Source: Pseudomonadota bacterium
GTDB lineage: Bacteria > Desulfobacterota > Desulfarculia > Desulfarculales > Desulfarculaceae
Reading direction: 5' to 3'
Assembly: GCA_018819925.1 (NCBI GenBank)
Contig: JAHJPG010000129.1
Location: 1-46,643 of the forward strand
DNA length: 46,643 bases
Shown here piece after piece: positions 12,367 to 36,700 of the stretch; the stretch's first letter is position 1, and the number at the start of each line of letters is the position of its first letter. Below the pieces are notes generated by a model. The model was given only the letters and a program-made list of their open reading frames with translations. It ran no database searches and had not been told where the DNA came from. Both the position numbers and the translations under genes were made by a program.

Positions 12367-12395
12367 TTGCGCCCCGTCTTTGGTTTTGTTATAGA
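12367..12395 (+). promoter_or_regulatory. Sigma-70-type promoter of the chemosensory operon
   Basis: TTGCGC (12367-12372) and TATAGA (12390-12395) with a 17-bp spacer, and an extended -10 TG at 12387-12388. It lies in the only sizeable gap before the ten-gene operon, in an AT-rich patch. The predicted leader is about 75 nt. Confidence 0.6.
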
Positions 12396-12475
12396 TAGTG
12401 CATTGAGTTTAACGCCTGACGTCCAAGGGGCCTGCTTTTTTAGTTGGGCCCATACCCTGGAAGCTAGGAGAGGCA

Positions 12476-12787
12476 ATGGAACTGAAAGTCGTTGCCCTTG
12501 AGGACCGCGCTCGCATTGAGATCGCAGGCAACATAGACGAACGGGGCGCTGAAGAGATGAAAAGGCGTTTTTTGGATCTGGACCTGTCTTCGATCAAGGA
12601 AGTGACCCTGGACTTCGGCGGAGTCACCTTCATCGGTAGTTCCGGCATAGGCAAGCTGCTGCTGCTCTACAAAAACCTGGCCACTCACGGCGGCGCGGTG
12701 CGCATAGACAATATGCCCAAGGACATCTACACTATGTTCAAAGTGGTCAAACTGGATAAAATATTCCAGATATCCTCGGCCACTTGA
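12476..12787 (+). CDS. STAS-domain anti-sigma-factor antagonist (SpoIIAA/RsbV type)
   Basis: Single STAS domain of 103 residues. The key segment VTLDFGGVTFIGSSGIGKLLLLYKNL (written here only as landmarks: GSSG near residues 58-61) keeps the serine that HATPase kinases phosphorylate and PP2C phosphatases dephosphorylate in partner-switching systems. It is first in the operon, whose last two genes encode exactly such a phosphatase and HATPase. It is therefore the probable output switch. Its binding target is unknown. The ATG at 12476 follows GGAGAGGCA. Confidence 0.9.
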   Translation: MELKVVALEDRARIEIAGNIDERGAEEMKRRFLDLDLSSIKEVTLDFGGVTFIGSSGIGKLLLLYKNLATHGGAVRIDNMPKDIYTMFKVVKLDKIFQISSAT

Positions 12788-12800
12788 ATGGGGTGCCCCC

Positions 12801-13094
12801 TTGCTGGACTACCAGCTCTCTCCCAATGAGCTTGCCTTGAGCGGCCAACTCAAGGTGCAATACTTGGACACATTAAAAGAAGCCCTACTGAAAGCCGCCC
12901 AACAGGGAGGCTTGGCGTGCTTGAACCTTTCTCAGGTGCGGGAAGTCGATACCGCCGGCCTGCAACTATTGTTGGCCTGGCTGCGCCAACCACGCCCCCA
13001 ATTCATCCCACGCCTGACCGATGTCCCGGAGGTCGTGGCGCGGGCTCTGCGCCTGGGCGGCTTGCAGAGTCATTTTGCCCCGTTCATGGAGTAA
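12801..13094 (+). CDS. Second STAS-domain protein, MlaB-like, no phospho-serine
   Basis: 97-residue STAS protein starting with TTG 13 bases after the first STAS gene. The loop reads VDTAGLQLLLAW, so the serine position of SpoIIAA-type proteins (D-S-S-G) is alanine (D-T-A-G), as in MlaB-like STAS domains. Phosphorylation control at that site is therefore unlikely. It may act as a scaffold or compete constitutively for the same partner as the first STAS protein. Its place just before cheY suggests a role in the chemosensory complex. Confidence 0.82.
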   Translation: MLDYQLSPNELALSGQLKVQYLDTLKEALLKAAQQGGLACLNLSQVREVDTAGLQLLLAWLRQPRPQFIPRLTDVPEVVARALRLGGLQSHFAPFME

Positions 13095-13100
13095 ACCGGC

Positions 13101-13508
13101 ATGACCTCCCCTGCTCACCCAACCAACCGCCTTATCCTCTTGGTGGATGATTCGGCCACTTTGCGAATGTCGGTGCGGAGCATCCTGGAGGAGGCTGGCT
13201 ATGAATTGGTGGAGGCCAGCGACGGAGTGGAGGGCCTGGAGGTGCTTAGGGCCCTCGGCCGCCAGGGGCGGAACCCCGCCATGATCATAAGCGACGTGAA
13301 CATGCCCCGCCTCGACGGCATTTCCTTTATCAAGGAAATCAAGAACACCCCCCACAAGTTCCTGCCCATCCTGGTGTTGACCACCGAGGGCCAACCCCAA
13401 AGCAAGTTGGAAGGCAAGCGGGCCGGAGCCTCGGGCTGGCTGGTCAAGCCCTTTCAGCCGGAGACTTTGCTGGCGGTGGTCAAGAAATTCACCCGCTCCC
13501 TGAACTGA
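13101..13508 (+). CDS. cheY: CheY-like single-domain response regulator
   Basis: 135-residue receiver domain. The acidic pair is VDDSAT (D16-D17), the phospho-acceptor is D65 in IISDVNMPRLDG, and the switch Thr and Lys lie in LVLTTEG and LVKPF. There is no output domain, so it acts by binding a partner or as a phosphate sink for CheA. It starts 6 bases after the second STAS gene. Whether it reaches a flagellar motor cannot be told, since no flagellar gene is in the window. Confidence 0.92.
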   Translation: MTSPAHPTNRLILLVDDSATLRMSVRSILEEAGYELVEASDGVEGLEVLRALGRQGRNPAMIISDVNMPRLDGISFIKEIKNTPHKFLPILVLTTEGQPQSKLEGKRAGASGWLVKPFQPETLLAVVKKFTRSLN

Positions 13509-13514
13509 GTAGGG

Positions 13515-15542
13515 GTGGTGGACCAAAAACTGCTAGAAATCTTCGCCGAGGAAGCCGGGGAACTCATGGAGGCCCTGGAGGCGGGACTGTTATCCCTGGA
13601 AGGCGGGGCCGGCCAAGACCTGATCAACGGCGTGTTCCGCGCGGCCCATACCATGAAGGGCAACGCGGGCATCGTGGGCTTTGAAGACGTGGTGGAGCTT
13701 ACCCACCTCATGGAAAGCCTGCTGGATCAGATGCGTCAGGGACTACGCCAACCGGACGTCCAAAGCGTGAGCCTGTTGCTCAAGGCCACGGATGCCCTGA
13801 GGGAAATGGTGGGCGCCCGCGTGGCCGGGCAAGAGGCGTCCCAGGCTCCCGGCGAAATCATGCAACCGCTCAACGCCCTGCTGCGGCCTGATTCCCAGGA
13901 GGAGACGGCGGCGCCCAGCCCGGCCACCCCCAACCTCTCCCATCGCCCCTCGCCCCCGGCCAACGCCCGGCGGCGGCTGCACCTGAGCATCAGGCTGCAA
14001 CCGGACCTGTTGGGCACCGGCACCGATCCCTTGCGGCTCTTGCGGGAACTTGAGGAATTGGGCGACATCGAGCGGGTGATCTGCCATGTCGAGGACCTGC
14101 CTCCCATGGAGCAAATGGACCCCTTCACCCTATATCTGTGGTGGGAAGTTTGGATGGCCACCCCCCATCCCCAGGCCACCATCGACAACGTTTTCATGTT
14201 TGTGCGCGACGAGGGGCATATTTTCAGCGAGGAGGCTCAGGGCCCGCCCCCCAACGATAACGCGGCCCTGTCCCTGCTGCCCCGGACCCGGCACGACCCG
14301 CCTTCGCCGGTCCCGGCGCCAGGCGAGCAGACGCCGGCGCCCAAGGCGGCTGCCCCGCGAACCGCCCCCCTGGCCACGCCCACCATCCGGGTGGACACGG
14401 ACAAGCTGGATAAGCTGGTGAACCTGGTGGGCGAGTTGGTCATCGGGGTGGCCCGGGTTTCCGAGAGCGCGAGCCCCGAGGCCGGCCCCGAACTGCGCGA
14501 GGCCATGGAGTCCCTGGGCCACGCGAGCCGCGAATTGCAGCAGCAGGTGATGCGGGTGCGCATGGTGCCCGTGGGGGGCACATTCAATCGCTTCCGGCGG
14601 GTGGTGCGGGACCTGGCCGCCGAGTTGGGCAAGCAGATTCGCCTGAATCTAAGCGGCCTGGACACCGAGTTGGACAAGAACGTGGCAGAGCAAATAGCCG
14701 ATCCCCTGAGCCACTTGGTGCGCAACGCGGCGGTCCACGGCCTGGAGACGCCGGCCGTGCGCCGCCAAGCGGGCAAACCGGCCGAGGGGGTTATCTGGCT
14801 GCGAGCCTACCAGCAGCAAGGGCGCATTTTCATCGAGGTGGCCGACGACGGCCGGGGCATCGATCCCGAACGGGTGTTGGCCAGAGCGGCGTCCTTGGGA
14901 CTGACCCCACCCGAAGACGCCTCCAACTCGGCGGATATCTACAAGCTTCTGTTCCACCCGGGCTTTTCCACCGCCGATAAAGTCACCGAGCTTTCCGGCC
15001 GGGGGGTGGGCTTGGACGTGGTGCGGGAAAACATCGAATCCCTGCGGGGGGCGGTGGAGGTGGAGTCGCACCCGGGCCAGGGCAGCACCTTTCGCATCAA
15101 GCTGCCCCTGACCCTAGCCATCATCGACGGCATGAACGTGATGGTGGCCGGCGAGGTGTTCGTGCTTCCTCTGTTGTCCATCGTGGAGTCGCTGCGCCCT
15201 GTCCCCGGAGACCTGAAAACCGTGGAGGGCAAGGGCGAGTTGATCAGGTTCCGGGGCAATTACCTGCCCCTGGTGCGTCTGGCCCGCCTTTTTCGCCTGA
15301 CCGGCGGAGTGGAAGACCCCTGCCAGGGCCTAGTCATGGTCATAGAAAGCCTTGGCAAACGCTTCGGCCTTCTGGTGGACGACATCCTGGGCGAGCGCCA
15401 GGCGGTGATCAAATCCCTGGAGCAGAACTACCAGAAGGTGCCCGGAGTGAACGGGGCCACCATTTTGGGAGACGGCCGGGTGAGCCTGATTTTGGACATC
15501 CTGGGCCTGGAGCGCATGGCTCTGGGCACGGACCAGGAGTAA
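13515..15542 (+). CDS. cheA: Chemotaxis-type histidine kinase CheA
   Basis: 675-residue CheA. The P1/Hpt domain has the phospho-acceptor H45 in FRAAHTMKGNAG. A P2-like domain follows (LHLSIRLQPDLLG to about residue 235), then a proline-rich linker, the P3 dimerisation helices (DKLDKLVNLVGELV), and P4 with an N-box (HLVRNAAVHGLE near residue 400), DDGRGID and GRGVGLDVV. The P5/CheW-like domain is C-terminal (GEVFVLPLLSIVESL). All catalytic motifs are intact. There is no fused receiver. It starts with GTG at 13515 (13518 is an equally possible GTG), 6 bases after cheY. Confidence 0.95.
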   Translation: MVDQKLLEIFAEEAGELMEALEAGLLSLEGGAGQDLINGVFRAAHTMKGNAGIVGFEDVVELTHLMESLLDQMRQGLRQPDVQSVSLLLKATDALREMVGARVAGQEASQAPGEIMQPLNALLRPDSQEETAAPSPATPNLSHRPSPPANARRRLHLSIRLQPDLLGTGTDPLRLLRELEELGDIERVICHVEDLPPMEQMDPFTLYLWWEVWMATPHPQATIDNVFMFVRDEGHIFSEEAQGPPPNDNAALSLLPRTRHDPPSPVPAPGEQTPAPKAAAPRTAPLATPTIRVDTDKLDKLVNLVGELVIGVARVSESASPEAGPELREAMESLGHASRELQQQVMRVRMVPVGGTFNRFRRVVRDLAAELGKQIRLNLSGLDTELDKNVAEQIADPLSHLVRNAAVHGLETPAVRRQAGKPAEGVIWLRAYQQQGRIFIEVADDGRGIDPERVLARAASLGLTPPEDASNSADIYKLLFHPGFSTADKVTELSGRGVGLDVVRENIESLRGAVEVESHPGQGSTFRIKLPLTLAIIDGMNVMVAGEVFVLPLLSIVESLRPVPGDLKTVEGKGELIRFRGNYLPLVRLARLFRLTGGVEDPCQGLVMVIESLGKRFGLLVDDILGERQAVIKSLEQNYQKVPGVNGATILGDGRVSLILDILGLERMALGTDQE

Positions 15543-15548
15543 GCGGCC

Positions 15549-16847
15549 GTGGCGCGCCGTGAGATATTAACCCCTCTGGCAGCCGAAGCTCCGGCTCTTT
15601 TGCGGGCGGTGGAGGAAGGGCTGCTGGCCCTGGAGCGCGGCGAGTCCGCCCCGGAAGCGGCCCAAAGCGTTTTCAGGTCATTGCACGCCGCCTGGGCCGG
15701 CGCCGCGGTAGCCGGTTTGGAAAACCTTGAACGCCTGGCCGGCCGCATGGAATTAACCCTAAGGCTCCTGGTCCATGGCCGTCTGTCTCCGCGCCAGCAT
15801 ATCATCGACGCCTTGTTGCAGGCGGCGGATCTTTTGGCGGCCATGCTCACCCGCCTGCAGGAAGCGGAAAAAGTTGAGGCGGGCGGTTGCCTGCGGGCGC
15901 TGGACGCGGCCCTGGGGGCCGAGTTGCCCCCGGAGTTGATTGACCGCCTGACCCCGGCCCCACTGCCCGGCCACCCGGCCTGGCTGGTCGCCCCCTGGCT
16001 GCTGGAAAGGGTCTTGGCGCAAGACCAAGGCCTGTTCATGGTCATTCTTTCCAAGGAGGCCCAAGACAGCGGGGAGTCCCTTTACGCTCACCTGGGGGAG
16101 TTGCTCACCCTGGGGGAATTGTTGGCCTGCGCCCCCGGGCCCCGGCAATCCCTGGAGTTGCTCTACGCATCGCCCCTGGAGCAGGATTTGCTAGGCGAGG
16201 CCCTGTCCCTACCCAGGGAGTTTTTGCGTCCCTTGCCGCCGTCTGATTTGAATGACTCCGGCGAGGAGCGGCCAACCCTGAAAGAGAAGCCCGCCCACCC
16301 GGGCCCGGCCCAGGCACCCTCTCCCCAGGGGTTTTCCACGCCTGTCGCCACCGCCTCGCATTTCCAGGCGCCGGCGTCATCTCCGGCCCCGGCTGTTGAC
16401 CTGGAACGGCGGGTAAACTACCTCGTCTTCCACCTGGGCGGGGAGATGTACGGCGTGGAGGTGTCCCTGGTACACGAAATAATCAACCTGCCGCCCGTCA
16501 CCCCCCTGCCCTTGTCCCCGGAGTTCGTTCTGGGTGTGGTGAACCTGCGGGGCGCGGTGGCTCCGGTGTTTGATCTGCGCCTGAGGCTGGGGCTGACCCC
16601 GGGAGGGGGCCGGGGCGAACCGGTGGCGGTGGTGGTGCGCCTGGATGGCAAACTGCAAGGGGTGGTGGTGGACACGGTGGATGACGTCCTTGATCTGGGC
16701 AGCGAGGATATCCAGGAGCCGCCGGAGATGGCCGGTCCGGTGCGGCGCGAGTGTTTACTGGGTCTGGTTCAGCGAGAGGAAGACTTGATCATTCTGATGG
16801 ACCTGGCCCGGCTGCTGGCCCAGGAGCCGATGGACCATGCCGCCTGA
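15549..16847 (+). CDS. Unusual CheW: degenerate Hpt and P2-like domains fused to CheW
   Basis: 432 residues, far longer than a normal CheW (about 160). The C-terminal third is a clear CheW domain (YLVFHLGGEMYGVEV near residue 295; FVLGVVNLRGAVAPVFDLR). The N-terminus lines up with the Hpt domain of the CheA next door: VFRSLHAAWAGAAVAG against VFRAAHTMKGNAGIVG. It keeps the histidine (H46) but loses the lysine and glycine that follow it. The middle (LFMVILSKEAQDSGESLY near residue 170) resembles the P2-like domain of CheA. The protein thus looks like a CheA copy that lost the P3/P4 kinase core. The start is GTG at 15549. It overlaps cheR by 11 bases. Confidence 0.85.
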   Translation: MARREILTPLAAEAPALLRAVEEGLLALERGESAPEAAQSVFRSLHAAWAGAAVAGLENLERLAGRMELTLRLLVHGRLSPRQHIIDALLQAADLLAAMLTRLQEAEKVEAGGCLRALDAALGAELPPELIDRLTPAPLPGHPAWLVAPWLLERVLAQDQGLFMVILSKEAQDSGESLYAHLGELLTLGELLACAPGPRQSLELLYASPLEQDLLGEALSLPREFLRPLPPSDLNDSGEERPTLKEKPAHPGPAQAPSPQGFSTPVATASHFQAPASSPAPAVDLERRVNYLVFHLGGEMYGVEVSLVHEIINLPPVTPLPLSPEFVLGVVNLRGAVAPVFDLRLRLGLTPGGGRGEPVAVVVRLDGKLQGVVVDTVDDVLDLGSEDIQEPPEMAGPVRRECLLGLVQREEDLIILMDLARLLAQEPMDHAA

Positions 16848-17727
16848 TCCACCCCGCCGGGAAACCGCCCAAGCGGCTACAAGGCCGTTGGCCGGAATTC
16901 ACCAACTTTCCGACAAGGATTTCGCAACCATCTCCCGCCTGGTGGAGGCACAAACCGGCATTCACCTGAGCCAAAGCAAGAAAGACCTCGTAATCAGCCG
17001 TCTTTCCCGGCGGCTGCGGGCCTTGGGCATGCGGGATTTTTCCCAGTACGCAGACCTGCTCTCATCGGGACGGGCCCCGCAAGAATTGCTGGAGATGACC
17101 AACCAGATCACCACCAACAAGACCGATTTTTTCCGCGAGCCACACCACTTCGAGTTTCTACGCGCCCAGGTGCTGCCCGCCGTGGAGGCCGGGACCCCCG
17201 CGCACGGCCCCAAGAGGCTGCGGGCCTGGTCGGCAGGCTGTTCTTCGGGGGAAGAGGCCTATTCCCTGGGCATGACCCTGTCCGAATATTGGGCGGGACG
17301 GCCCGGATGGGACTGGAAAATTTTGGCCACCGACTTGGATACCAACATGCTGCGCGCGGCCTCTCGTGGTTTGTACCGCCCGGAGCAGGTGGCCAAGGTG
17401 TCACGGAACCTTTTGCTTAAATATTTCCTGCGCCGGCGCCAAGACGGAGGCTACGCCTACGAGGTCAAGCCTTCCCTGCGCCGCATGATCACCTTTGGCA
17501 AGTTCAACCTTATCCATGCCGGCTATCCCCACCGCACCCCCCTGGATTTCGTTTTTTGCCGCAACGTGCTCATCTATTTTGACGGCGCGCAAAAGCAGGC
17601 CATAATCGACAAACTAACCACCTCCTTGCGGCCCGGGGGGTGGCTGTTCCTGGGCCACTCCGAATCCATGCTGGCCACCAACCGCCGCTTGGTGTGCGTG
17701 GGCCCAACCGTATACAGAAGGCCTTAG
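16837..17727 (+). CDS. cheR: Chemoreceptor methyltransferase CheR
   Basis: SAM-dependent glutamate O-methyltransferase of 296 residues. It has an N-terminal helical domain (FATISRLVEAQTGIHLSQSKKDLVISRLSRRLR; short landmarks at residues 30-62) with a basic patch, then the SAM fold with RAWSAGCSSGEEAYSLGM near residue 128 and VFCRNVLIYFD near residue 240. There is no pentapeptide-binding TPR extension. Together with cheB and cheD it implies methylated receptors, yet none is encoded here. The ATG at 16837 overlaps the preceding gene. Confidence 0.94.
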   Translation: MPPDPPRRETAQAATRPLAGIHQLSDKDFATISRLVEAQTGIHLSQSKKDLVISRLSRRLRALGMRDFSQYADLLSSGRAPQELLEMTNQITTNKTDFFREPHHFEFLRAQVLPAVEAGTPAHGPKRLRAWSAGCSSGEEAYSLGMTLSEYWAGRPGWDWKILATDLDTNMLRAASRGLYRPEQVAKVSRNLLLKYFLRRRQDGGYAYEVKPSLRRMITFGKFNLIHAGYPHRTPLDFVFCRNVLIYFDGAQKQAIIDKLTTSLRPGGWLFLGHSESMLATNRRLVCVGPTVYRRP

Positions 17728-17734
17728 AGCAACC

Positions 17735-18355
17735 ATGCTGCGCCAATACTCACCCCTTTTCAAACGCCCCCTTATAACCATTCAGCCGGGGGAGTATTAT
17801 GCTACCCAGGGCGATGAAATGGTGGGCACGGTGCTGGGATCGTGCGTATCGGTTTGCCTGCGGGACACCAAGGCGGGAATCGGAGGGATGAACCATTTCA
17901 TGCTGCCCGGAGGGCGGGGGCGGCCGGGCGACCCCTCCTCGGCCACGGCCCGCTACGGCATGTACGCCATGGAGCTGCTCATTGGCGAGATAATCAAGCT
18001 GGGTGGCGGGCGGGAGCATTTTGAGGCCAAGGTGTTCGGAGGCGGTCACGTGCTGTGCAATTCCCCATCCAGCGGGCACAACGTGCCCCGGGCCAACTTG
18101 GAGTTTGTGCAAGGCTTCCTGAGCCTGGAGGAAATACCTGTCGCGGCCCATGACGTGGGCGGCGACTGCGCACGCAAAATTTACTATCATCCCCTGAGCG
18201 GGCGGGTTTTGCTAAAGCGCCTTCCCGCTCCGGTTCCCGAGGAGGTGTTGGCCCGCGAGCGCGCCCACGGCAGCCAGGCGCGGCAGCGCTCGCTTCGCGA
18301 TGACTTGACCCTGTTCGGCAACAAGGCCCCCGGCGCAAAAGGACCACGGGATTGA
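17735..18355 (+). CDS. cheD: Chemoreceptor glutamine deamidase CheD
   Basis: 206-residue CheD. The catalytic motif GSCVSVCLRD and the histidine in GGMNHFMLPG are both present, and the third conserved Thr/Ser region is likely in the ARYGMYAMELLIGEI segment. CheD deamidates receptor glutamines and in some bacteria is controlled by CheC and CheY; no CheC is seen here. A charged C-terminal tail of about 40 residues exceeds the minimal domain. It ends in TTGA overlapping the cheB start. Confidence 0.93.
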   Translation: MLRQYSPLFKRPLITIQPGEYYATQGDEMVGTVLGSCVSVCLRDTKAGIGGMNHFMLPGGRGRPGDPSSATARYGMYAMELLIGEIIKLGGGREHFEAKVFGGGHVLCNSPSSGHNVPRANLEFVQGFLSLEEIPVAAHDVGGDCARKIYYHPLSGRVLLKRLPAPVPEEVLARERAHGSQARQRSLRDDLTLFGNKAPGAKGPRD

Positions 18356-19440
18356 TCAAAAGAACCAAGGTGCTGATCGTCGATGACTCGGCCGTGATCC
18401 GGGAGTTCCTGCGCTCGGTGTTGAGCGGGGAGCCGGATATGGAGGTGGTGGGAGCGGCGGCTGATCCTTTTTTCGCCCGAGACAAGATATTAAGCCTGCG
18501 TCCGGACGTCATCACCCTGGACATCGAGATGCCCCGAATGGACGGGCTGACCTTTTTGGAAAAGCTCATGACCGCCCACCCCATGCCGGTGGTCATGTTC
18601 AGCAAGGTCACCCAGTCCGGAGCCGAGGCCACCTTGCAGGCCCTTCGCTTGGGAGCGGTGGAGGTCATCGCCAAGCCCACCAGCAACCTTCGAGCCAATC
18701 TGCCCACGCTTAAGCAGGAGATCGTGAGCAAGATACGGGCCGCCGCCCGGGCCAGGGTGGGTCCGCGGACCGAAGCGGCCCAGTCCGTTAAAACCACGCC
18801 GGGCCTCCAAGGCGCCGCCCAGCAACCGGCTCTGCCCTGGCGCCCGGCCCGTGACATGGTGGTGGTGATGGGCGCCTCCACCGGGGGCACCGTGGCCCTG
18901 GAAAAGCTGCTCTGCGCCCTGCCCTCAGACAGCCCTCCCCTGGTGGTGGTGCAGCACCTGCCGGCCCAGTTCACCCAGCCCTTTGCCCAGCGCCTGGACA
19001 ACAGCGCGGCCATCGAGGTTAGCCAGGCCGAGGATTTCATGCCCTTGACGCCGGGCAAGGCCCTGGTGGCCCCGGGCGACCGTCATGTTTTCCTGGAGAG
19101 CAACCAACGCGGCTACTACCTAAGGGTCAAGGACGGCCCCCTGGTCAACCACCACAAGCCATCGGTGGACGTGTTGTTCCGCTCCGCCGCGGGCAGCGCC
19201 CCGGGGCGGGCCCTGGGAGTGATAATGACCGGCATGGGCAGCGACGGAGCCCAAGGGGCCCTTGAGATGCGCAGGCAAGGCTGCTGTGTGTTGGCCCAGG
19301 ACGAGGCAAGCTCCGTGATCTACGGCATGGCCCGGGCGGCGGTGGAGCTGGGAGCGGTGGACCGCATATTGCCCCTGGAGGAGATCGGGCCCAGCATTTG
19401 CCGCCTCTGGGAAGGGGCCCAACGAAGGGAAGCGCCATGA
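18352..19440 (+). CDS. cheB: Chemotaxis response regulator methylesterase/deamidase CheB
   Basis: 362 residues. The receiver domain has D11, D12 and phospho-acceptor D57 in TLDIEMPRMDG. The C-terminal methylesterase domain has the nucleophile in MGASTGGTVAL near residue 175, the histidine in VVVQHLPAQF, and the aspartate in TGMGSDGAQGA. All catalytic residues are in place. The TTG start at 18352 overlaps the cheD stop by 4 bases; no other good start exists before the receiver begins. Confidence 0.95.
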   Translation: MIKRTKVLIVDDSAVIREFLRSVLSGEPDMEVVGAAADPFFARDKILSLRPDVITLDIEMPRMDGLTFLEKLMTAHPMPVVMFSKVTQSGAEATLQALRLGAVEVIAKPTSNLRANLPTLKQEIVSKIRAAARARVGPRTEAAQSVKTTPGLQGAAQQPALPWRPARDMVVVMGASTGGTVALEKLLCALPSDSPPLVVVQHLPAQFTQPFAQRLDNSAAIEVSQAEDFMPLTPGKALVAPGDRHVFLESNQRGYYLRVKDGPLVNHHKPSVDVLFRSAAGSAPGRALGVIMTGMGSDGAQGALEMRRQGCCVLAQDEASSVIYGMARAAVELGAVDRILPLEEIGPSICRLWEGAQRREAP

Positions 19441-20615
19441 GCCACCACTGGAATCAAGGCCATTGGGACCCGCCGGCGACCATCCTGGTGGTGGATGATT
19501 CTGGCTTGAACCGCAAGCTGCTGACCGCCAGCCTGGCCCGCGAAGACTACCGTTTTCTGGAGGCGTCCCACGGCCGGGAGGCCACGGAAATACTTGGCCG
19601 TCACCCCGAGGTTGACCTGATTCTGTTGGACTTGATGATGCCGGTGATGGATGGCTTCGCCTTCCTGATCTGGCGCATGGACAATCCCGAGGCACGCGGG
19701 GTCCCGGTCATCGTCAACAGCTCCCTGGATGACAGGGAGTCCCTGACCAAGGCCCTGGCAATGGATTGCTACGACTATTTCATTAAGCCCCTTTCCTCAG
19801 CGGACCTTGACCTGGTGCTGCCGCTCAAGATCCGCAACGCGGTGCACAGCAAGCGTTTGATGGCCGACCTGCGGGCCAAGAACCAAATAATGGCCGGCGA
19901 ATTGGAGTTGGCAGCCCGTTATCAGCAGTTCCTGCTGCCCAAAGACGCCCAACTGCCGGGACTGCAAGCCGCTTGGCTTTTCAGGCCCTGCCGTGGGGTG
20001 GGCGGGGACTACTTCGATTTTTTCGAGTTGCCCGGCGGAGACCTGGGCCTGGTGGTGGCCGACGTCTCCGGCCACGGAGTGGCCTCGGCCATGACCGCCA
20101 GCATCCTCAAGGCCCTGGTGCCTCGGTACCTGGGAGCCCATGAATCCCCGGCCGCGGTTTTGGAGATGCTCAACGAAGACCTTTTACGCCTCACCCCGGC
20201 CGACGCTTTCGTCACCTGCTTTTTGGGCCGGTATGATCCCCGGGAGCGGCTCCTGCGCTGGAGCCTGGCCGGCCATCCTTCGCCTTTGCTGCAAGACCCG
20301 GACGGAAGCATAAGCCACCTGGAACAGTCCAGCCCCTTCTTGGGGGTATTTTCAAACGACCAGCCCCTGTTACAATATTTAGACAAAGAGTTGCGGCTGG
20401 CCGGCGGCCAACGCCTGGTCATACACACCGACGGTTTATTGGAGGTCCCCGACCCCCAGGGAAAACCCATGGGGCCGGGGCGCTTGAAACAACTGCTCGA
20501 ACAGCACCGCGCGTTGACGGCAGGCCAGTTGGCAGAGCAATTGGCGCATGAGCTGGACCAATGCGACGGAGATCATCTTCCCGATGACGTTGCTTTGATC
20601 ATCTTGGATTTTTGA
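19437..20615 (+). CDS. Receiver-PP2C (RsbU/SpoIIE-type) phosphatase
   Basis: 392 residues. The N-terminal receiver has D20, D21 and phospho-acceptor D65 in ILLDLMMPVMDG. A coiled-coil linker (about 135-165) leads to a PPM/SpoIIE phosphatase with metal aspartates in GVGGDYFDFF, VVADVSGHGVASAM and LPDDVALIILDF. Such enzymes dephosphorylate STAS antagonists. Residue layout resembles HsbR/CrsR-type regulators, but those carry the HATPase on the same chain, whereas here it is the next gene. The ATG at 19437 overlaps the cheB stop (ATGA). Confidence 0.92.
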   Translation: MSHHWNQGHWDPPATILVVDDSGLNRKLLTASLAREDYRFLEASHGREATEILGRHPEVDLILLDLMMPVMDGFAFLIWRMDNPEARGVPVIVNSSLDDRESLTKALAMDCYDYFIKPLSSADLDLVLPLKIRNAVHSKRLMADLRAKNQIMAGELELAARYQQFLLPKDAQLPGLQAAWLFRPCRGVGGDYFDFFELPGGDLGLVVADVSGHGVASAMTASILKALVPRYLGAHESPAAVLEMLNEDLLRLTPADAFVTCFLGRYDPRERLLRWSLAGHPSPLLQDPDGSISHLEQSSPFLGVFSNDQPLLQYLDKELRLAGGQRLVIHTDGLLEVPDPQGKPMGPGRLKQLLEQHRALTAGQLAEQLAHELDQCDGDHLPDDVALIILDF

Positions 20616-21481
20616 TGACCTTCGAACGCCACCCCAAATCCCCTCTATTGTCTGCGGACAATTACCACGTTTTGGTGGTGGATGATGAATCCATGATTAC
20701 TGAGCTGTTGGTGCGGCTCCTGTCTGAAAAGGGCTACGAGGTATCCAGCGCCACCGACGGCAGTGAGGCCCTGGATTTCTTACGGGGCCGCGCCTGCGAC
20801 CTAGTTATCAGCGATGTGCGCATGCCCCGCCTGGACGGTCTGCAACTGCTCAAAGCGCTAAAGGACTTGAATCCCCGCCTGCCGGTGATCATGATCAGCG
20901 GCTACGACGACACCACCACGGTGGTTTCAGCCCTCAAGGCGGGGGCGGAAAACTTTTTGGCCAAGCCTCTGGATCTGGACGAGTTGGACCAGGTGGTGGC
21001 CAAGACTTTGAGCATGGCCAGTATTCGCCCCAGAAGCTGCCCCTTGCCCTCGGTGCGCCAAACCACCGCCATGGAGGCGCCCAGCCGCCCCGAATGTGTG
21101 CGGGACCTGCTTTATCAGATATCCTTATCGGCGGTGGCGGTGGGGTTCGCCGCGCACGATCTGGAAAACAACCTCAAGCTGGCCCTGTCCGAAGCCATCA
21201 CCAATGCCATGGAACACGGCAACCAGTGGGACGAATCCAGGCCGGTGGAAGTGCAAGTGAGCTTGGATCAGTTCGAGATGCGGGTCACGGTGCGCGACAA
21301 GGGCCGGGGATTCAACCACCGCCGCATGCTAAACCCCACCTCCAGCGAGCACATTTTGAGCGAGCGGGGCCGGGGCATTTTCTTGGCCAACGCCATCTTG
21401 GACGAAGTAATTTACAACCAGGCCGGCAACCAGGTCACCCTGGTGAAGCGCCGCGCCGATACACATGGCAAGCGTAGTTGA
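20615..21481 (+). CDS. Receiver-HATPase (RsbW-like) anti-sigma/switch kinase
   Basis: 288 residues. The receiver (phospho-acceptor D67 in VISDVRMPRLDG) is fused to a HATPase_c_2 domain of the SpoIIAB/RsbW type. The N-box is ALSEAITNAMEHGN near residue 200, with DKGRGF and GRGIFLAN as G-boxes. It is probably a serine kinase for the first STAS protein, an anti-sigma factor, or both, with activity set by receiver phosphorylation. The ATG at 20615 forms TGATG with the preceding stop; a TTG at 20612 is also possible. It is the last gene of the operon apart from an overlapping NUDIX gene. Confidence 0.9.
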   Translation: MTFERHPKSPLLSADNYHVLVVDDESMITELLVRLLSEKGYEVSSATDGSEALDFLRGRACDLVISDVRMPRLDGLQLLKALKDLNPRLPVIMISGYDDTTTVVSALKAGAENFLAKPLDLDELDQVVAKTLSMASIRPRSCPLPSVRQTTAMEAPSRPECVRDLLYQISLSAVAVGFAAHDLENNLKLALSEAITNAMEHGNQWDESRPVEVQVSLDQFEMRVTVRDKGRGFNHRRMLNPTSSEHILSERGRGIFLANAILDEVIYNQAGNQVTLVKRRADTHGKRS

Positions 21482-21998
21482 ACTCATGCCCCTTCCCTTT
21501 ACTCCCCGTTATTGCGCCTGGTGCGGCGGCGCCCTGGTCTCCACGCAAGGCCTGAACCCCAGTGGCCCGCCGTTTTATTGCAGCGCCTGCGGCCTGCCGG
21601 TGTACGAAGATCCCAAGGTAGCCGCCGCAGTGATAGTGCATAGCAGCCAAGGGGTGCTTTTGTTGCGCCGGGCCCAAAAAGACGGCGCCCACGGCAAGTG
21701 GATTTTGCCCGGCGGCCACGTGGACCGCGGCGAGGTGGTCCCTTCCGCGGCCCAACGCGAAGTGGTGGAAGAAACCGGCCTGCTGGTGGAACTTACCAGC
21801 CTGCTGGGGGTCTATTCCTACCAAGGCAATCCCTGGGTGCTGGTGGTCTACACCGCCACCGCCAACGGAGGGCGCCTGTCGGCCGGGCCCGAAGCCCTGG
21901 AGATTCGTGCCTTTGCCCCCGAGGAACTTCCCTGGGATGAACTGGGTTATGAATCCACCGCCCAGGCCTTGAAGGATTACCTGGCTCTAAATCCCTGA
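21465..21998 (+). CDS. NUDIX hydrolase with N-terminal zinc ribbon
   Basis: 177 residues. The N-terminal zinc ribbon (CAWCGG and CSACGL, residues 18-45) resembles NudC-like and related NUDIX proteins. The NUDIX box reads GGHVDRGEVV then REVVEETGLL, so the G-x5-E-x7-REUxEExGU pattern is complete. The substrate is probably a nucleotide derivative but cannot be assigned. The ATG at 21465 overlaps the receiver-HATPase gene by 17 bases; an ATG at 21486 is an alternative. A functional link to the switch system is possible but not shown. Confidence 0.88.
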   Translation: MASVVELMPLPFTPRYCAWCGGALVSTQGLNPSGPPFYCSACGLPVYEDPKVAAAVIVHSSQGVLLLRRAQKDGAHGKWILPGGHVDRGEVVPSAAQREVVEETGLLVELTSLLGVYSYQGNPWVLVVYTATANGGRLSAGPEALEIRAFAPEELPWDELGYESTAQALKDYLALNP

Positions 21999-26521: not shown

Positions 26522-28063
26522 ATGCCCTTGGAGCTCAAACAAAGCCTTAGGCTCAGTCAGCAACTGGTGATGACCCCTCAGTTGCAGCAGGCCATTAAAC
26601 TGCTGCAACTCAACCGCCTGGAGCTGGCCGACACCATCAACCAAGAACTCGAGGAAAACCCCCTGCTGGAGATCTCCGAGGAGACCACCCAGGATGCCGA
26701 GCAGGCGGAGTTGGATGCCGGCGCCGAGCCGGAAAGCGAGGCGGCCCTGCGCTCCGACGACCAGGGCACGGAGGGACAGGGCGAGGACGCCGCGGGGGGC
26801 GAAGAAGCCCCGGAGAGCCCCTCGGAGCGAGAGGTGGAGGTAGACGGCCAGATCAACGAGGACTTCGACTGGGAGAACTACCTGGGCGAGTACTCCTCCG
26901 GCGGCTCGGGTTACGAGAGCATCGTGCGCGAGGACAAGGACGCGCCGGCCTACGAAAACATGATCTCCAGTCCCCCTTCCCTGCGCGACCATCTGCTGGA
27001 GCAACTCAGCTTCACCGAGCTGGGCCCCATCGAGTTGGCCGTGGGCGAGATCATCATCGAGTCCCTGGACGCCGACGGCTACCTGATCATGGGGGCGGAG
27101 GAATTGGCCCGCGTGGCCGGCACCGACACCGAGACCGCCGAGCGCACCCTCAAGAGAATCCAGGGCTTCGACCCAACCGGCGTGGCCGCCCGGGACCTGC
27201 GGGAGTGCCTGCTAATCCAAGCGGCCGAACTATACCCTGACGATGAGTTGGTGCGGCGCATCATCTCCGATCACCTGCCCGACCTGGAGCGCCGCCGTTA
27301 CCAGGCCATCGCCAAAAAACTCAAGGTGGACATGGAAGAGGTGGCCCGGGCCCTGGAGGCCATCCAGACCCTGGACCCCCGGCCCGGCCAAGCCCTGAGC
27401 AGCGAACAGGCCCAGTACATCACGCCGGACATCTACATATACAAGGTGGACGGCGAATTCGTAATCACGCTTAACGAGGACGGCCTGCCCAAGCTGAGGG
27501 TGAACAACTTTTACCGCGAGGCGTTGGCCCTGGGCGGCGACGCCGAGGCCAAGGAGTACGTGCAGGGCAAGCTCAGGAGCGCCCTGTGGCTCATCCGCTC
27601 CATCCACCAGCGTCAGCGCACCATCTACAAGGTCACCGAGTCCATCGTCAAATTCCAGCGGGATTTTTTTGACAAGGGCATCGCCTACCTCAAGCCCTTG
27701 GTGCTTAGGGACGTGGCCGAGGACGTGGGCATGCACGAGTCCACCATCAGCCGGGTGACCACCAGCAAGTACGTGCACACTCCCCAAGGCGTGTTTGAGC
27801 TGAAGTACTTTTTCAACAGCGGCATCAACCGCTTCCAGGGTCAGGCCATGGCCTCGGAGGCGGTCAAGGAACGCATCCGGCGGATGATCGCCGGGGAAGA
27901 CACGGTTAAGCCCCTGTCCGACCAGGCCATCGCGGAGATGCTTGAGAGGGAAGACATCGACATCGCCCGGCGAACAGTGGCAAAATATAGAGAGATGTTG
28001 GGCATACTTCCCTCCTCCCGGCGGCGGCAACCCCTCAAGGCCTTGGGTAAATCCAAGGGGTAA
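26522..28063 (+). CDS. rpoN: RNA polymerase sigma-54 factor
   Basis: 513 residues. Region I is the Gln/Leu-rich N-terminus (LELKQSLRLSQQLVMTPQLQQ), region II is long and acidic (about residues 55-130), the core-binding and HTH regions follow (HESTISRVTTSKYVHTPQG), and the RpoN box is ARRTVAKYREMLGI near the C-terminus, complete. It starts 6 bases after lptB, the conserved arrangement. It is the expected partner of the NtrC-type regulator at 35333 and of the sigma-54 promoter near 36886. Confidence 0.97.
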   Translation: MPLELKQSLRLSQQLVMTPQLQQAIKLLQLNRLELADTINQELEENPLLEISEETTQDAEQAELDAGAEPESEAALRSDDQGTEGQGEDAAGGEEAPESPSEREVEVDGQINEDFDWENYLGEYSSGGSGYESIVREDKDAPAYENMISSPPSLRDHLLEQLSFTELGPIELAVGEIIIESLDADGYLIMGAEELARVAGTDTETAERTLKRIQGFDPTGVAARDLRECLLIQAAELYPDDELVRRIISDHLPDLERRRYQAIAKKLKVDMEEVARALEAIQTLDPRPGQALSSEQAQYITPDIYIYKVDGEFVITLNEDGLPKLRVNNFYREALALGGDAEAKEYVQGKLRSALWLIRSIHQRQRTIYKVTESIVKFQRDFFDKGIAYLKPLVLRDVAEDVGMHESTISRVTTSKYVHTPQGVFELKYFFNSGINRFQGQAMASEAVKERIRRMIAGEDTVKPLSDQAIAEMLEREDIDIARRTVAKYREMLGILPSSRRRQPLKALGKSKG

Positions 28064-35088: not shown

Positions 35089-35332
35089 AGGCCCTAAAAT
35101 CAAAACCGCCAGGGCCAGTTCCAGACCTCTGTGCGATTTGCACAGCATCCATGCTGGCGATGTTCATTGGTGCTTTCACCGAGAGATACTCTATATTAGT
35201 TTAGCCTTAAGCTATATCCGGCGATCTCTTTTGGCCAGGCCCTGGACGAAACTCTCATGTGGCGCGTACACTTGGGGGCGTAATGTTGGGGCACTCCCCC
35301 CCTTGGTTGCCAGCCGCACCGCGGAGATCCAT

Positions 35333-36700
35333 ATGACCACAACCAATTGCTTCAGCGGGCCATCCACGCAAGGCCGCATCCTGGTGGTGGACGACGAATT
35401 GACCACCTTGAAGAACCTGCGCCGCATCTTGGAGAAACAGGGGTACCAGGTCTCCACCTACAGCAACCCGGTGCGGGCCCTGGAGCTGCTCAAGCGGGAG
35501 CCCTTCGACGTGTTGCTCAGCGACCTGCGCATGCCCCACCTGGACGGCCTGGAGCTGCTAGACCAGGCCAAACGGGCCGCGCCGGGCCTGGAGGTGATAA
35601 TCATCACCGGCTACGCCAGCCTGGATGGCGCGGTGGAGGCCACCAAGAAGGGAGCCTACCATTTCCTGGCAAAACCCTTCACCCCGGAGCAGGTGCGCCA
35701 AGTGGTGGCCGAGGCCCTGGCATTGAAACAGACCCGGGAAGTCGCCCAGGCCCTGGAGCACCAGGACGGCCCCCTAATCATAGGCCAGAGCCCCCAGATG
35801 CGGCGGGTGGCCGAGGTCATCGCCCAGATCGCCCCCACCGACTGCAACGTCTTGATCATGGGCGAGTCGGGCACCGGCAAGGAGCTGGCCGCCCGCGCCA
35901 TCCACTCCCAGAGTCATTGCGCTACGGGGCCCTTCGTGGCCTTTAACTGCGCGGCCCTCAACGCCGCGCTGATGGAAAATGAGTTGTTCGGCCATGAAAA
36001 AGGGGCCTTCACCGGAGCCGGGCAGACCAAGGCCGGCCTGCTGGAGGCGGCCCAGGGAGGCACCATTTTCCTTGACGAAATAGGCGAGATGCCACAGGCC
36101 ATGCAGGTGAAGCTGTTGCGCGCCCTGCAGGAGCGGGAGGTGCTGCGGGTGGGGGGAACCAAGGCCGTGAGCCTGGAGGTGAGGGTGGTGGCGGCTACCG
36201 CCCGGGACCTCAAAGCCGAAGTGAGCCAGGGCGCCTTTCGCCAGGACCTGTATTACCGCCTCAACGTGGTGAGCCTGGTCCTGCCGCCCCTGGCCGAGCG
36301 CGGCGACGACATTCAACTGCTGGCCTACTACTTCCTGGGAGTCTTCAACCGCCGCATGCACAAACAGATCCGGGGCCTCTCCCCCTCCGCCCTGGAGCTG
36401 CTAACCCGCTATGCCTATCCGGGCAACGTGCGCGAGTTGGCCAACATCATGGAACGATCGGTGGCCCTGTGCGCGCAGGACATGATCACCGAACGCGACC
36501 TGCCCCCGGATCTGGCCACGGTGGAACTGGCCAGTTTTTCCCGCCCGGACGGCGATGCGCCCACTCTGGAGGAACTGGAGCGTCGCTACATAGAGCACAT
36601 TTTGGAACTGACCGGCGGGGTGCGCACCCGGGCGGCGGACATCCTGGGCATCGACCGGGTCAGCCTGTGGCGCAAGATTAAGAAGTACGGGCTGGAATAG
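35333..36700 (+). CDS. NtrC-family sigma-54-dependent response regulator
   Basis: 455 residues. Receiver with D20, D21 and phospho-acceptor D64 in LLSDLRMPHLDG; AAA+ domain with Walker A GESGTGKE near residue 177, the sigma-54 contact loop KGAFTGA near residue 223 and Walker B GTIFLDEIGEM; C-terminal Fis-type HTH (RAADILGIDRVSLWRKIKKYGLE as landmark at the end). All motifs for opening sigma-54 promoters are intact. ATG at 35333 follows GCGGAGATCCAT; the frame is open upstream but not conserved. It is the likely activator of the sigma-54 promoter downstream at 36886. The 235 bases upstream hold small inverted repeats (35130-35144, 35143-35156) and AT-rich sequence. Confidence 0.94.
   Translation: MTTTNCFSGPSTQGRILVVDDELTTLKNLRRILEKQGYQVSTYSNPVRALELLKREPFDVLLSDLRMPHLDGLELLDQAKRAAPGLEVIIITGYASLDGAVEATKKGAYHFLAKPFTPEQVRQVVAEALALKQTREVAQALEHQDGPLIIGQSPQMRRVAEVIAQIAPTDCNVLIMGESGTGKELAARAIHSQSHCATGPFVAFNCAALNAALMENELFGHEKGAFTGAGQTKAGLLEAAQGGTIFLDEIGEMPQAMQVKLLRALQEREVLRVGGTKAVSLEVRVVAATARDLKAEVSQGAFRQDLYYRLNVVSLVLPPLAERGDDIQLLAYYFLGVFNRRMHKQIRGLSPSALELLTRYAYPGNVRELANIMERSVALCAQDMITERDLPPDLATVELASFSRPDGDAPTLEELERRYIEHILELTGGVRTRAADILGIDRVSLWRKIKKYGLE

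Follow-up and report, generated by a model that had tools for sequence, protein, structure and literature searches.

A Desulfarculaceae F7-class chemosensory operon encoding a partner switch divided between two receiver-bearing proteins

The chemotaxis system of Escherichia coli was assembled from an ancestral F7 chemosensory system. What that ancestor did has been described as still unknown, and the oldest gammaproteobacterial form of the class already carried two anti-sigma antagonists and a serine phosphatase (PMC7184735). Stage 1 F7 loci (e.g., those of Vibrio cholerae and Methylomicrobium alcaliphilum) combine the order antagonist-cheY-cheA-cheW-cheR-cheD-cheB with a second antagonist, a serine phosphatase, and a 36H receptor (PMC7184735). 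In Shewanella oneidensis, the che1 locus of the F7 system encodes two MCPs and the partner switch CrsR-CrsA, which comprises a receiver-governed PP2C phosphatase, an RsbW-like kinase, and a STAS antagonist and has RpoS as its known client (PMC9855816). HsbR-HsbA of Pseudomonas aeruginosa also places the phosphorylation of a STAS antagonist under receiver control; it is fed by the HptB pathway, and its known clients are FlgM, HsbD, and RpoS (PMC6482189). Both HsbR and CrsR consist of a single chain (PMC6482189). Receiver (REC)-PP2C phosphatases that are separate from an RsbW-type kinase and act on a STAS antagonist are known in Mycobacterium smegmatis (RsfR) and Bacillus cereus (RsbY), where the signal comes from a histidine kinase and not from CheA (PMC10950880).

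The window (i.e., the whole stretch of DNA analyzed, one complete contig of 46,643 nucleotides) carries ten contiguous genes at positions 12476-21481 (Table 1). Pfam searches recovered the genes and domains that a preliminary description of the sequence had listed, in the same order: STAS, STAS, CheY, CheA, Hpt-CheW, CheR, CheD, CheB, REC-PP2C, and REC-HATPase. The spacing is also as tight as claimed there, with gaps of no more than 13 bases or short overlaps: from STAS1 onward, the first four junctions are gaps of 13, 6, 6, and 6 bases, the next is an 11-base overlap, and then come a 7-base gap and the 4-base overlap of CheD and CheB. CheB and REC-PP2C overlap by 4 bases, provided that translation of the latter starts at the ATG at 19437, which is a likelier start than the TTG at 19398; the start of REC-HATPase is likely the ATG at 20615. 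The promoter proposed upstream was borne out in part: the element is conserved in eight congeneric genomes, with and without che genes alike, but scores weakly against the sigma-70 consensus and does not appear in the list from a consensus scan. At the other end, a NUDIX hydrolase gene overlaps the REC-HATPase gene by 17 bases and adjoins it in most relatives, che-less genomes included; the NUDIX gene is therefore probably cotranscribed, and the transcription unit probably runs past 21481.

Table 1. Features of the operon and its borders (positions in the window)
Feature	Positions	Strand	Match or basis
Putative promoter-like element, TTGCGC-N17-TATAGA	12367..12395	+	Kept in 8 congeneric genomes
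STAS1, SpoIIAA/RsbV-like anti-sigma factor antagonist, Ser55	12476..12787	+	PF01740 4.6e-12
STAS2, MlaB-like STAS	12801..13094	+	PF13466 1.4e-12
CheY, single receiver	13101..13508	+	PF00072 1.5e-25
CheA (Hpt, dimerization, HATPase, CheW domains)	13515..15542	+	Pfam
Hpt-CheW	15549..16847	+	CheW 4.1e-31, Hpt 0.0075
CheR methyltransferase	16837..17727	+	Pfam
CheD deamidase	17735..18355	+	Pfam
CheB (receiver-methylesterase)	18352..19440	+	Pfam
REC-PP2C (SpoIIE/RsbU-type) serine phosphatase	19437..20615	+	PF00072 + PF07228 5.6e-45
REC-HATPase (RsbW/SpoIIAB-type serine kinase/anti-sigma factor)	20612..21481	+	PF00072 + PF13581 4.6e-23
NUDIX hydrolase	21465..21998	+	PF00293 1.1e-22; overlaps REC-HATPase stop

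The operon is a deltaproteobacterial F7 chemosensory locus. In a FastTree phylogeny, used here in place of formal F-class models, the CheAs of this operon type are sister (support 88) to a group that unites E. coli CheA with gammaproteobacterial F7-like CheAs, and they stand apart from Wsp-like and other Desulfarculaceae CheAs. The window CheY clusters with the CheYs of gammaproteobacterial F7-like loci in the receiver tree, and the gene order follows the F7 pattern antagonist-cheY-cheA-cheW-(MCP)-cheR-cheD-cheB save for the missing MCP. The E. coli receptor Tsr is a 36H receptor, and an orphan receptor of G000, the genome to which the window belongs (contig C22; L053 4764-6923, minus strand), aligns with it without gaps over the signaling domain; this 36H receptor is tied to the operon by co-occurrence only. 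Its C terminus, FEEF, is conserved in four genomes, the Tsr counterpart being NWETF. The receptor also gave a weak match, below the cut-off, to the CZB zinc-binding domain, the first His ligand of which is apparently lost in G000 and present in G009. With stage 1 F7 loci (PMC7184735), the system shares the che gene series, the second antagonist, the serine phosphatase, the receptor class, and the position of CheA beside gammaproteobacterial F7-like CheAs. It differs in that the second antagonist gene lies 5', the operon encodes no receptor, the single CheW bears an Hpt domain, phosphatase and kinase sit on two chains, and no flagellin was detected in the genus. This additional Hpt domain is degenerate in the window's genus (HAAWAGAA, with the Lys/Gly motif lost), whereas flagellated genera retain a canonical HSIKGGAG.

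The key residues of the partner-switch proteins are intact. Ser55 of STAS1, the predicted phosphorylation site, matches the first Ser of D-S-S-G in SpoIIAA and is retained in 13/13 aligned orthologues. The full-length REC-PP2C chain resembles the P. aeruginosa response regulator 3eq2, and its PP2C motifs (GGDYFD, DVSGHG, TDG, and DDVAL) are all intact. REC-HATPase has RsbW (6m36) as its top PDB match, is also similar to SpoIIAB, and retains the N, G1, and G2 boxes of an RsbW-like GHKL kinase. Each of the three receivers aligned (those of CheY, REC-PP2C, and REC-HATPase) has its Asp and Lys residues intact. The preliminary description was therefore accurate as to the Ser site of STAS1, the PP2C metal residues and HATPase boxes, and the phospho-acceptors of these three receivers.

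The division of phosphatase and kinase between two chains, each with its own receiver, is also real. Receiver, PP2C, and HATPase lie on one chain in all five complete switch proteins found in our gammaproteobacterial survey, in one of which the HATPase match falls below the Pfam cut-off. The joining of a chemosensory system and a partner switch at the operon level is not new and had already been described for ancestral F7 loci (PMC7184735) and S. oneidensis Che1 (PMC9855816); the variant part is the two-chain form with a receiver on each chain. The switch of the window resembles CrsR-CrsA in its components and in being encoded with an F7 system but differs in that CrsR unites receiver, PP2C, and kinase in a single polypeptide (PMC9855816). 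The same contrast in chain number holds for HsbR (PMC6482189), and no kinase-borne receiver is described for the RsfR and RsbY systems (PMC10950880). The two-chain switch may work like CrsR-CrsA, yet it stands outside the one-chain CrsR/HsbR family. A recent duplication of the two fused receivers, or a simple fission of a CrsR chain, is unsupported: the receiver tree does not place the two as sisters, although its deep forks are unresolved.

Six genera of Desulfarculaceae, represented by nine genomes, have the complete ten-gene order, and operon fragments in five more agree with it up to the contig ends. Conservation of gene order, a check set beforehand, is thus confirmed. In G001, a CheA core identical in sequence to that of the operon occurs at a second place (G001:C1:3011830) in a shorter open frame, which suggests a recent duplication. 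All 20 family genomes searched contain a REC-HATPase match that spans at least about two thirds of its length; the sole other genome of the order gave a receiver-level match only. The two-chain form with che genes was not found outside Desulfarculaceae, either among the best REC-HATPase relatives in 395 sampled genomes of the phylum or among the matches listed from an 84,980-genome collection. We also surveyed 60 loci of the best CheA relatives from 369 gammaproteobacterial genomes. A STAS2-like gene was present in 55 of these loci. At least 17 have a STAS1-like gene, a REC-PP2C protein, or both, a lower bound because the sequence covered reaches only about 10 kb to either side of cheA.

What is new here is a natural dissection of the locus, in a genus without detected flagellin whose members can keep the switch after loss of the sensing genes. 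Flagellin was detected in none of the eight genomes of the window's genus and in all 13 other genomes searched. Four congeners (G000, G007, G008, and G009) carry the full operon and one orphan receptor, the receptors of the others being 55-72% identical to that of G000; four (G004, G005, G006, and G010) lack both. Operon and receptor therefore co-occur in 8/8 genomes, a pattern with about two independent losses behind it. STAS1 and REC-HATPase, with receivers intact, are kept in all eight; in the four che-less genomes they lie in the same place, between the same flanking genes. REC-PP2C is kept at the che-less loci of G004 and G006 and is gone from the other two. The active sites of the switch proteins kept at che-less loci are intact. 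STAS2 is absent from every che-less locus, and no remnants of CheA or STAS2 were found there. Judging from a tree of linked genes, in which the grouping of G004 and G006 has weak support (57), che probably disappeared at least twice within the genus. These losses and the decaying additional Hpt domain could mean that the chemosensory part is becoming dispensable.

This dissection assigns each STAS protein to its module. STAS1 and REC-HATPase form the core and STAS2 is part of the chemosensory set, since the former are kept in every congener and STAS2 is lost with che. The two STAS proteins are thus not equivalent. The phospho-site position of STAS2 is occupied by T, I, L, or M across orthologues; with no conserved Ser/Thr, and with the gene missing wherever che is missing, STAS2 is ruled out as a second switch antagonist. 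It belongs to the F7 set and travels with che. G005, which has no REC-PP2C at the locus, encodes a MASE3-PP2C membrane protein (contig C4; L350 1065-2705) whose PP2C domain shares 43% identity with that of the window REC-PP2C. This protein could be a substitute phosphatase with a different input.

We give about even weight to the reading that this F7-class system keeps the ancestral F7 output, a partner switch, now divided between two proteins, and that CheA also serves the fused receivers. Beyond the anatomy, the conserved order, the co-occurrence of operon and receptor, and the persistence of STAS1 and its kinase, we infer the phosphotransfer steps and a client as follows. The 36H transmembrane receptor, CheA, and Hpt-CheW would form an array tuned by CheR, CheD, and CheB. 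CheA would pass phosphate to CheY and CheB and also to the fused receivers of the PP2C phosphatase and of the RsbW-like kinase, a donor role that is plausible. REC-PP2C and REC-HATPase would then set the phosphorylation of STAS1 Ser55, and the state of STAS1 would decide whether it holds the kinase/anti-sigma factor and so releases a sigma factor or other client. By analogy with CrsR, REC-HATPase may itself bind the sigma factor. With the sigma-70 region 2 model, only RpoD, an RpoD-like group-2 sigma, and an RpoH-like sigma were found as sigma-70 family members in G000; given these and the absence of detected flagellin, FlgM/FliA is an unlikely client in the genus. The retained pathway is probably regulatory and not for swimming, because no flagellin was detected in the genus, and the switch beside the sensing genes probably controls gene expression.

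The main alternative, which we regard as rather unlikely, is that the two modules are neighbors without crosstalk: they would share a promoter, CheA would serve only CheY and CheB, and other histidine kinases would mainly serve the fused receivers. The che-less genomes lend it weight. Receivers of the phosphatase and kinase remain intact and constrained there (dN/dS of 0.10 and 0.09 for the G004-G006 pair, with dS saturated in places), neither CheA nor an MCP was detected in the single-contig genome G004, and REC-HATPase relatives elsewhere in the phylum have no che genes nearby. Upkeep of the receivers is thus independent of the operon, and the operon CheA cannot be the only phosphodonor, because four che-less congeners keep the receivers intact; after che loss, another donor must serve them. 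Such retention, however, shows that other donors exist and not that CheA is no donor, and against this reading stand the order with overlapping genes, conserved over six genera, and the gammaproteobacterial F7-like loci, which often carry a partner switch too. An improbable alternative is that the system is one of flagellar chemotaxis with CheY as its real output, the switch being a secondary passenger and the che genes of the flagellin-less genus remnants on their way out: the other family genera, all with flagellin, have 10-31 MCPs against 0-3 in the window's genus, where che is absent in half of the genomes and the additional Hpt is degenerate, and the operon CheA is the only one detected in G018, but the complete order persists in four flagellin-less genomes with CheA dN/dS below 1 (0.26 and 0.43), one orphan receptor with a conserved CheR tether is kept, and several flagellated relatives own an additional CheA from another clade.

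Returning to the divided switch under CheA, a further possibility, which we hold only tentatively, is that, in these bacteria without flagellin, an F7 array reduced to one receptor serves to govern STAS1. CheA would address the phosphatase and the kinase each through its own receiver, and the F7 ancestor would have controlled a sigma factor or a comparable client, not motility. The single linked receptor, the lack of detected flagellin, and the che-less congeners with a switch separate the modules without experiments and define a small protein set on which the step from CheA to the partner switch is directly approachable. G000 also encodes a second, Wsp-like chemosensory cluster with CheA-REC, CheB, and REC-GGDEF (contig C102; L121 7800-10151). 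A single MCP was detected in this genome; the Wsp-like cluster reaches the contig end, and its own receptors are therefore probably absent from the assembly. The window further encodes RpoN (sigma-54; 26522-28063) and a receiver-containing sigma-54 activator (35138-36700).
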